From NCBI GenBank assembly GCA_030618495.1, contig JAUXDE010000075.1, positions 1-8,847 of the forward strand: DNA of 8,847 nt, given 5' to 3'. Within the stretch, counting starts at the first letter, position 1, and the number at the start of each line of letters is the position of its first letter. The notes beneath the pieces were generated by a model. The model had not been told where the DNA came from. It made no database searches and saw only the letters and a list, made by a program, of their open reading frames with translations. Positions 1-7,573 of the stretch are shown here, in pieces. The DNA is from Clostridia bacterium (lineage in GTDB: Bacteria; UBA6262; WVXT01; JAUXBS01). Made by a program: the position numbers and the translations under genes.

Positions 1-1313
1 AAGGGACATGTTATTTCTCCGGTTCCACTGCATTTAGTACAACCAACATACTGATAGGTAATGGGTTTATGTATCACCCCGGAACCTGAACACACCGCGC
101 AGGCAGCCTTCCCCGCGCCACCGCCGCAGGACGGGCAGACAACCGTTGTGGCCGGAATTTCCTCTTTGATTTTCCCTTCCCCCATACATCTTGTACACTT
201 CACTTTTTTCGGGCAATCTTTAATTATATGGCCTTTCCCGTCACAATCCGGGCATTTTAATTTCCCGGCTACGCATTTCAAACACCGTTCCTTGAGTTTT
301 CCCTGCCCGTTGCATTTCTCACAGTTCTTTTTTCCGTCACCGTTGCACACGGGACAGGTAAGCTTGACCTTTAAACCGCCCTTGCATACTGAACATACCT
401 TCCAGCTGCCCTTCTCACCCTTGCACTGAATACATGAACCGCTATATTTACATTCCGTACAGGGAAGGCGTTTCTTTACGGCAATTATCCTGGCGTTAAA
501 TATCTCGTCAGGCCTGTATTTATAAGCTTCTTCGTACAACTTAAGAGCCTCCTCAAGTTCCCTGCGCTTGCCGATGCTTTCCTTCCTGTCACCCGCCGCA
601 TAGACCCTGTCTAACGAATCTATTTCCAGCTTGCTGAAATCATCCCTTAAATCCATTTTCTTCCCGAAAAACATGGCTTCATGAGACAGAATTCTGAACT
701 CCAGGGCAAGTTTAAGCGCGTTAAGGGAAAGCCTTTCCGCGGATCCGCTATCAATCTCTGCCCCGGACATAAACCTGCTTTCTATCTCCATAAGTTCTTT
801 ATGCTTCTCCCTGGCGAGAGCGTAAATATTATTACCCGATTTCACCTTATCAAGCATATAACAGGCAAAATAGTATTTGACCCTCTTTTCCCTGCCATCC
901 CATGAAAGAACTTCTTCAAGACCCGCCAGTGTAGCTTCCGATTCAGATTTTACCATTGAATGTATATTATCTTCCATTATGTCCTGGTTGATACCGTCAG
1001 CCATATTTGTAAGTTCCGACGTAAAACTTGAACTGATTTTTAAGTTCACCATGTCGGAAAATGCATTATAGGCTTTATCCTTGGCATCATTCTTTGCCGC
1101 GGACAGTGTTCCTCCCGTGCCTGAAACCACTACGGAAAGATACCTTTTCGAAGGATATTTCCTTGCCGATGAATGGTCCGATGGCAGTTTTGTCATCTTT
1201 GCCCAATCCGGACGTTTATGAAGATTCGACGTTGCGCACCCGGCTGTAAGAACAAAAACCAGGATAAACAGCTTAACCAGAAGCGGTTTTTTTACCCTGT
1301 CTTTTAAATACAT
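1..1313 (-). CDS. Lipoprotein with LPP20-like domain and DnaJ-type CxxC zinc-finger array (partial, C-terminus off left edge)
   Basis: I read an uninterrupted frame of 437 codons from an ATG at 1313 to the left edge, with no stop. Residues 1-26 form a lipoprotein signal: basic KDRVKK, a hydrophobic core (LFILVFVL), then LTAGC, so Cys26 should be lipidated and the protein exported. Residues about 35-157 resemble the LPP20 lipoprotein family (RPDW, then YLSVVVSGTG, an Ala-rich helix, and a closing YYFACYMLDK). Residues about 160-280 look helical, with a TPR-like segment near 246-270. From 285 onward there are eleven CxxC pairs (first Cys at 285, 294, 307, 320, 331, 344, 354, 373, 393, 405, 425). 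Six match the DnaJ motif CxxCxGxG exactly (320, 331, 354, 373, 405, 425), and Cys436 may begin another. The array implies zinc or redox chemistry; the function is unknown. The start has AAGGA eight bases upstream; an in-frame ATG at 1322 is an alternative. It lies 34 bases after pyk, so is probably co-transcribed. Confidence 0.85.
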   Translation of the reverse strand, partial: MYLKDRVKKPLLVKLFILVFVLTAGCATSNLHKRPDWAKMTKLPSDHSSARKYPSKRYLSVVVSGTGGTLSAAKNDAKDKAYNAFSDMVNLKISSSFTSELTNMADGINQDIMEDNIHSMVKSESEATLAGLEEVLSWDGREKRVKYYFACYMLDKVKSGNNIYALAREKHKELMEIESRFMSGAEIDSGSAERLSLNALKLALEFRILSHEAMFFGKKMDLRDDFSKLEIDSLDRVYAAGDRKESIGKRRELEEALKLYEEAYKYRPDEIFNARIIAVKKRLPCTECKYSGSCIQCKGEKGSWKVCSVCKGGLKVKLTCPVCNGDGKKNCEKCNGQGKLKERCLKCVAGKLKCPDCDGKGHIIKDCPKKVKCTRCMGEGKIKEEIPATTVVCPSCGGGAGKAACAVCSGSGVIHKPITYQYVGCTKCSGTGEITCP

Positions 1314-1347: not shown

Positions 1348-2379
1348 CTACACCATAAGGTTTTTTAACTTCTTTTTATAGCTTTCGGTACTTTTAATAA
1401 TATTGTTCATCATGCATACCGCCTTGTGAGGATGCTTCCCAATGGCTGTCTCGGCAGAGAGGAGCAGTCCGTCAGCGCCATCCAGGATTGCATTTGCCAC
1501 ATCGCTAACCTCTGCCCTCGTTGGAAGTTCCTCCTCCCTCATGCTTTCCAGCATCTGGGTGGCAACAATAACCGGCTTACCCCTGAGACGGCATTTTTTT
1601 ATTACTTCCTTCTGAATCACCGGTACTTTGTAAATAGGGACGCAAATACCCAGGTCACCCCTCGCAACAATGATGCCATCCGCCTCATCAATAATGCCGT
1701 CAATATTTTCAATCGCATCCCTGCTCTCCACCTTGGCATAAATTCTGCATGAAGGATGACGCGGTTTTACAAGCCCCCTGAGCAATTTAATATCCTCTCT
1801 CTTGCTTACAAACGATTGGGCAATATAGTCCACTTTGTTTTCTATCCCCACCTCTACGTCTTTTCTGTCCTTTTCCGTAAGCGCCGAAAAATCCAGCTTT
1901 ACCCCGGGAATGTTTATTCCCTTGTTACCCATCAATATCCCACCCGTTATCACCTGAACCTTTAACCGATTCTTCCCCTTACCAATAACTTTCAGTACTA
2001 TTTTCCCGTCATCGATATAGACCAGTGTTCCGTTCTTTATCCGTTTAAGCGAACCCGTGTAATCAAAAGAAACATCTTTCTTGTTATTTATTGTATTATC
2101 CTGCGTGAGGTAAAACACAGTCCTCTTCTTCAACTCAACCGGTTTAGCCAGCTTCCCCACCCTTATACGGTACCCCTCCAGGTCCTGCATTATCTTTACC
2201 GCGCGCCTCTGTTTTTTGTTCATGTTTTTCACCAGCCTGATATTACGAAGGTGCTGTGTGTGCGTGCCGTGAGAGAAGTTAAGCCGCACTATATCAAGTC
2301 CGGAATGAAACATTTTTCTTAATACTGTCTCATTCCCGCTTGCGGGCCCAATGGTAGCAATTATCCTGGTTCTTACCAT
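1348..2379 (-). CDS. pyk: Pyruvate kinase, short form lacking the C-terminal allosteric domain
   Basis: Pyruvate kinase transfers phosphate from phosphoenolpyruvate to ADP, the last step of glycolysis. Recognisable motifs in order are TIGPAS (9-14), DIVRLNFSHG (29-38), a beta-barrel B domain (about 70-165), AKVES with the catalytic Lys216 and Glu218, ADGIIVARGDLG (233-244), ATQMLESM (273-280) and PTRAEVSDVANA (286-297). The protein is 343 residues against about 470 for the usual enzyme. It stops soon after the SAETAIGKHP segment (309-317), so the C-terminal effector-binding domain is missing. Only 34 bases separate its TAG from the next gene, so no decayed remnant of that domain is present. 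The usual G-P-[KE]-I-R segment reads G-Y-R-I-R (69-73). The family is clear, and catalytic residues seem kept; activity and regulation are uncertain. It starts 8 bases after the DUF1844 gene with only a weak purine-rich ribosome site. Confidence 0.92.
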   Translation of the reverse strand: MVRTRIIATIGPASGNETVLRKMFHSGLDIVRLNFSHGTHTQHLRNIRLVKNMNKKQRRAVKIMQDLEGYRIRVGKLAKPVELKKRTVFYLTQDNTINNKKDVSFDYTGSLKRIKNGTLVYIDDGKIVLKVIGKGKNRLKVQVITGGILMGNKGINIPGVKLDFSALTEKDRKDVEVGIENKVDYIAQSFVSKREDIKLLRGLVKPRHPSCRIYAKVESRDAIENIDGIIDEADGIIVARGDLGICVPIYKVPVIQKEVIKKCRLRGKPVIVATQMLESMREEELPTRAEVSDVANAILDGADGLLLSAETAIGKHPHKAVCMMNNIIKSTESYKKKLKNLMV

Positions 2380-7312: not shown

Positions 7313-7573
7313 TTATTCCTTGCTCTCACTCTCATTTTTCTGCGGTTTTTCGGTTTCCGGTTTCTTTTCCTTTTCTTCGGATGACTTGTCCTTCATACCG
7401 CTGATTCCCGCGACTATAGCTATTAAACCACTGATAACCAACAATGCCGGAACGACTGCCACGAGCGCCCTGAGAAACAGCTGAAAACCCGTTATATCAC
7501 CGCCGAACCACTTGATCATCATCCCTGAAACGCCAACAGCAATTGTAATCAAACCAATAATAATACTCATCAT
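7313..7573 (-). CDS. Small two-helix membrane protein with charged C-terminal tail
   Basis: I do not recognise the family. The 86-residue protein has two predicted membrane helices, about 3-23 and 33-59, joined by a short loop (FGGDITGFQ). A Lys/Glu/Pro/Ser-rich tail (61-86) is likely disordered. The two helices look like copies of each other: residues 4-18 and 46-60 match at 9 of 15 positions around a GLIxIxxGxSGM pattern. The start at 7573 is supported by AGGAGGG about eight bases upstream; the second codon is also ATG. It lies between nnr (47 bases) and thiL (23 bases) on the same strand. The small size makes a structural, regulatory or scaffold role more likely than an enzymatic one, but this is inference. 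The strong ribosome site and membrane-like composition argue that it is a real gene. Confidence 0.75.
   Translation of the reverse strand: MMSIIIGLITIAVGVSGMMIKWFGGDITGFQLFLRALVAVVPALLVISGLIAIVAGISGMKDKSSEEKEKKPETEKPQKNESESKE

Follow-up and report, generated by a model that had tools for sequence, protein, structure and literature searches.

How would a DnaJ-type cysteine array be used by a protein that appears to be exported and anchored to a membrane by lipid? The question is raised by a gene lying at one end of the window, the whole 8847-base stretch of DNA that was analysed, which is also an entire contig (C18) of a source genome of 1.69 Mb that is 98% complete. A minus-strand frame at 3-1322 is open and stop-free over 440 aa and runs off the contig at base 1; since the window is the entire contig, the gene lacks its 3' end here. 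Two in-frame ATG codons are found at 1313 and 1322 (-), and ATG 1313 is the likelier start, judging from AAGGAAAGG just upstream of it. Numbered from this codon, the readable protein is organized as follows.

1..1313, minus strand: gene for the lipoprotein, of which 437 aa can be read from ATG 1313 in a stop-free open frame, 3' end beyond the contig
1239..1313, minus strand: predicted signal peptide, residues 1-25, MYLKDRVKKPLLVKLFILVFVLTAG, read from the sequence as a positive n-region, hydrophobic core and lipobox LTAGC
1236..1238, minus strand: lipobox cysteine Cys26, predicted site of lipid attachment, with Ala at residue +2
765..1214, minus strand: putative divergent LPP20-like domain (aligned core 765-1172), from a profile of 17 LPP20 domains and weak single-sequence matches
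462..764, minus strand: helical linker that includes a weak TPR_2-like stretch (507-566) and shows helices in a low-confidence model
1..461, minus strand: DnaJ/BSD2-type cysteine array, 11 CxxC (6 of them CxxCxGxG) and the start of a probable 12th, from PF00684, 1exk and a hairpin model

The first step is the export signal. The lipobox reads LTAG before Cys26 and follows the hydrophobic core, so that the numbering given in an earlier sequence-only reading of this DNA is recovered from ATG 1313; we take LTAGC to agree with the PROSITE PS51257 pattern. The protein therefore has both the signal peptide and the lipobox cysteine of a bacterial lipoprotein, and lipidation at Cys26 is predicted.

What is the domain that follows the lipid anchor? 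The sequence-only reading had called this region LPP20-like, and the claim holds against a profile of LPP20 domains while failing against the Pfam model of the family. The profile was made from 17 LPP20 domains, most of them fetched with PF02169 and then aligned, and residues 51-186 of the protein score 44-45 bits against it (E about 1e-12 at Z 1000), a match slightly favored by the inclusion of L022, which was originally found with the query protein, and of L206, which is the same protein as the member L012. Scores of 500 shuffles of the same sequence do not exceed 8.3 bits, and held-out LPP20 members, each left out of its own profile, score 54-111 bits. Because the score lies far above the shuffles, the test supports assignment of the front half as a divergent LPP20-like domain. 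Moreover, single-sequence searches of other genomes return weak matches to two LPP20 proteins, of which L012 scores 46.6 bits against PF02169 and L022, at 18.8 bits, stays below the cut-off. In contrast, PF02169 itself matches neither the whole protein at E 1 nor the N-terminal half at E 10, and has no match across the source genome; a phmmer search of the front half against PDB chains returned nothing. The single-sequence structure model of the whole protein is unusable (pLDDT 38), and the helices that it places in the linker region are of low confidence. The TPR-like helix proposed for that region in the sequence-only reading likewise survives as a sub-threshold hint, since the TPR_2 match (E 0.33, 11.7 bits) falls below the cut-off of 27 and does not amount to TPR membership.

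The C-terminal part of the readable protein is dominated by cysteine pairs, which begin at residues 285, 294, 307, 320, 331, 344, 354, 373, 393, 405 and 425. The resulting 11 CxxC within 144 residues, six of them exact CxxCxGxG, and the spacings of 9, 13, 13, 11, 13, 10, 19, 20, 12 and 20 residues reproduce exactly the array first described. When the residues of the array were shuffled 20,000 times, CxxC occurred 3.5 times on average and never more than 10 times, and 11 pairs are for this reason above chance even at the cysteine content of the array. C436, the last readable cysteine, probably opens a twelfth pair because it aligns with the invariant first cysteine of a pair in other arrays; the array thus likely holds twelve pairs, an even number. 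With 26 cysteines, about six Zn(Cys)4 sites are possible.

How closely is this array related to DnaJ? The DnaJ central domain, PF00684, matches at 23.7-24.7 bits (E 5.8e-5), which is under the curated cut-off of 32.7, and the cysteine-rich domain of E. coli DnaJ (1exk) matches at E 5.6e-4. No J domain match is found in the protein, and the DnaJ model TIGR02349 reaches 18.7 bits against a cut-off of 377.2. A structure model of the array, built together with 11 other arrays and confident only for the last ~45 residues, shows in those residues beta hairpins like the zinc knuckles of DnaJ, BSD2 and Anti-TRAP, at weak similarity (Z 3.5-4.4). UvrA, lambda Q and other entries in the fold list were set aside as relatives, the zinc hairpin alone being in common. 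The array is of the DnaJ/BSD2 type and is no copy of DnaJ, in keeping with the earlier view on the latter point: the J domain is missing, the spacing is tighter and PF00684 stays under its cut-off.

Are the two halves found together elsewhere? No full-length homologue was detected in the poorly sampled phylum (six genomes, all of one order, including a genome of the same genus), in 386 diverse genomes, or in genome-contig and viral-contig collections, and plasmid matches to the protein cover the array alone. An array protein of the same phylum, L043 (24-1088 (-), G003:C74), was considered as a relative of the front half and rejected as a soluble, unrelated protein; it has 354 aa with six CxxCxGxG and an apparent winged-helix C-terminus, and it adjoins a gene for a 310 aa coiled-coil protein with repeats. 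Short six-motif proteins of the L043 kind occur at L040 and L041. The surroundings of the gene in the window are as follows.

1348..2379, minus strand: pyruvate kinase gene, directly upstream neighbor (PF00224, E 4e-106), on the same strand across a 34-base gap
2388-2699 of the window, minus strand: gene encoding a DUF1844 protein (E 1.7e-26), flanked on the same strand by gltX and pyruvate kinase

All six genomes of the phylum have the pyruvate kinase gene. In G001, the genome of the same genus (76% complete), it precedes a different gene, and the locus is therefore variable. The upstream genes are housekeeping genes and offer no functional hint, and promoter and terminator scans gave no score above shuffles. 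Elsewhere in the window, a protein of 86 aa (7313-7573 (-)) has two hydrophobic stretches and matches the NCBIfam model of the magnetosome protein MamI at 49 bits (E 4e-13; cut-off 80), and four other genomes of the phylum encode small proteins similar to it.

Dense arrays were then sampled by scanning two sets with a DNA pattern, 386 diverse genomes and 84,980 species genomes. The larger scan yielded 96 dense-array loci, which are a sample and no census since the pattern begins with TGTC. Lipoproteins are among the 31/96 that pass a signal-peptide/lipobox test, a figure to be read as a rough guide because the test is crude and of unmeasured error rate, and because several of the loci (Prevotella, Kiritimatiellae) are closely related to one another. 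Exported carriers in the 386-genome scan include tandem lipoproteins (two, L093), the PilX-like L100/L101, and also L089, L094 and L095; carriers in the larger scan include an RsgI-like lipoprotein (RsgI_M, L161) and an SH3 lipoprotein (L151), and small secreted Prevotella proteins also carry dense CxxCxGxG arrays. The sequence-only reading regarded export of a DnaJ-type array as unusual, a view that does not stand, and the proposed search for proteins sharing signal peptide and array found many on other carriers and none with an LPP20 front, as no similarity to the LPP20-like half was seen among the 96 sampled dense-array loci. By these sequence comparisons, export of such arrays is ordinary; the combination with LPP20, seen nowhere else among the sampled loci, is the rare part. 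The scans also turned up arrays in other settings. L100 and L101, from two related genomes, have a PilX-like prepilin N-terminus and then 16 CxxC (14 CxxCxGxG). L129 (about 2235-2357 (-)) of Candidatus Omnitrophus magneticus SKK-01 is a small exported protein with 10 CxxC in which the DnaJ central domain exceeds the Pfam cut-off. L079-L081, L105 and L106, from several genomes, are apparent Ser/Thr protein kinases into which a CxxCxGxG stretch is inserted and which have a membrane helix at the C-terminus.

What, then, would such a protein do? An SHS2-like fold is common to LPP20, FlgP and FlgT, the last two of which build envelope rings (PMC12222027; also PMC11756786). The J-domain-less, four-motif proteins ZnJ2 and ZnJ6 are zinc-binding holding chaperones that act without ATP (PMC5818400, PMC7865324). 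We hypothesize, tentatively and with slightly less than even confidence, that the protein is an envelope lipoprotein in which an LPP20 carrier tethers a J-domain-less, zinc-stabilised periplasmic binding or holdase array. In such a model, the signal peptide would be cleaved at Cys26 and the protein would be lipid-anchored, facing the periplasm; the N-terminal domain would be a divergent LPP20-type (SHS2-like) domain, of the kind that packs into envelope assemblies in characterised relatives; and from the helical linker would project a C-terminal rod with about six zinc sites, each formed by a pair of DnaJ/BSD2-like CxxC hairpins. Binding would be the most probable function of the array, such that unfolded or unassembled clients, or a fixed partner, are held at the membrane, and the zinc sites would serve stability and not catalysis. 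The recurrence of exported arrays on many unrelated carriers is what a portable binding module would predict. A broader and rather doubtful proposal is that exported CxxCxGxG arrays form an undescribed, widely shared envelope binding or holdase class swapped among LPP20, RsgI-like, SH3 and PilX-like carriers; the present protein would then be the first case carried by LPP20, a periplasmic zinc-finger chaperone that is independent of ATP and stands outside DnaJ. No description of exported bacterial CxxCxGxG proteins was found in the literature searched.

One alternative is that the protein is an assembly scaffold and no general chaperone, the LPP20 domain oligomerising as FlgP/FlgT do and the array recruiting one fixed partner. 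Relatives with the LPP20 fold form rings, but within the family the forming of rings correlates with the presence of a sequence insert (PMC12222027). The PilX-like, SH3 and RsgI-like carriers of other exported arrays are assembly or signalling modules, which would suit a scaffold; however, no partner gene lies near the present gene, and we regard this alternative as unlikely.

CxxC is also the redox motif of thioredoxin-fold enzymes, and the protein could therefore be a periplasmic thiol-disulfide protein whose pairs alternate between dithiol and disulfide forms and pass on oxidising equivalents. The DnaJ-like ZnJ6 is indeed oxidising in vitro (PMC7865324), whereas the holding activity of ZnJ2 is independent of its cysteines (PMC5818400). 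Against a redox role, moreover, the motifs here are CxxCxGxG knuckles outside any thioredoxin fold, and the six genomes of the phylum contain neither DsbB (PF02600) nor VKOR (PF07884), although the same searches were positive in control genomes. Since no member of either family was found in the six genomes, neither known quinone-linked disulfide-forming route is detected there. The missing DsbB and VKOR lead us to lean toward reduced, zinc-bound cysteines over redox-active ones, in a search that covered these two families of oxidase, and the thiol-disulfide role is distinctly unlikely.

If the cysteines do bind zinc, is binding metal their purpose? A metallothionein-like sink or sensor would mainly act in the envelope as a buffer for zinc or other thiophilic metals, and both the cysteine content, with its six or so possible sites, and the occurrence of exported arrays on otherwise unlike carriers would fit. 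However, in DnaJ and BSD2 the glycine-spaced CxxCxGxG knuckles have a structural role, and no metal transporter or regulator adjoins the gene, which makes such a role less probable still.

Could the combination be an artefact? The contig does end within the gene, and comparison of its first 130 bases with the other contig ends of the genome gave no match and so no overlapping end carrying the remainder of the gene. An assembly join or frameshift between the halves had been named as what would overturn the fusion, and instead a single uninterrupted frame crosses both. GC is 0.44 and 0.49 for the two halves of the protein, and a CAI-like index is 0.79 and 0.74, with neighboring genes at 0.75-0.79; these values differ little, and there is therefore no sign of a chimeric join as judged from the sequence. 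It is thus very improbable that a lipoprotein gene was joined in assembly to a separate cysteine-array gene, or that this is a decaying orphan gene, as the lack of a homologue in the 76% complete same-genus genome might suggest, when one open frame, preceded by a ribosome-binding site and encoding a lipobox, has codon use and GC alike on both sides and arrays fused to other exported domains exist elsewhere.

The tethered binding array remains our preferred reading. In most discussions, DnaJ-type cysteine arrays figure as modules of the cytosol or of plastids. The present case together with 30-odd exported arrays suggests that their transfer across the membrane by bacteria, by way of lipid anchors or signal peptides, is frequent. 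Do arrays outside the cytosol stay reduced and zinc-bound, and what do they bind there?

The protein can be compared with several known systems. With LPP20/FlgP-type envelope lipoproteins (PF02169; H. pylori HP1456) it has in common a lipobox signal peptide, a PxW..YP start and an LPP20-like domain of ~130 residues followed by helices, whereas here the Pfam model stays below threshold, the GxG turn is altered to SGTGG, and a CxxC array is present that none of the LPP20 loci inspected carries (the script took the wrong frame in a few of these loci). The exported array proteins L161, L151, L100, L093 and those of Prevotella likewise combine an export signal with a dense CxxCxGxG array, but their N-terminal domains are unrelated to the LPP20-like half. 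CxxCxGxG repeats are shared with the DnaJ central domain (PF00684), and the cysteine-rich domain of E. coli DnaJ can be aligned, while the present protein lacks the J and substrate domains of DnaJ and has a tighter and longer array. BSD2, ZnJ2 and ZnJ6, which are J-domain-less zinc-finger chaperones of the chloroplast, have the same CxxCxGxG knuckles without a J domain, in four motifs as compared with the eleven or more CxxC pairs, predicted lipid anchor and LPP20-like domain seen here, and ZnJ6 is membrane-associated, a likeness to the present lipoprotein.
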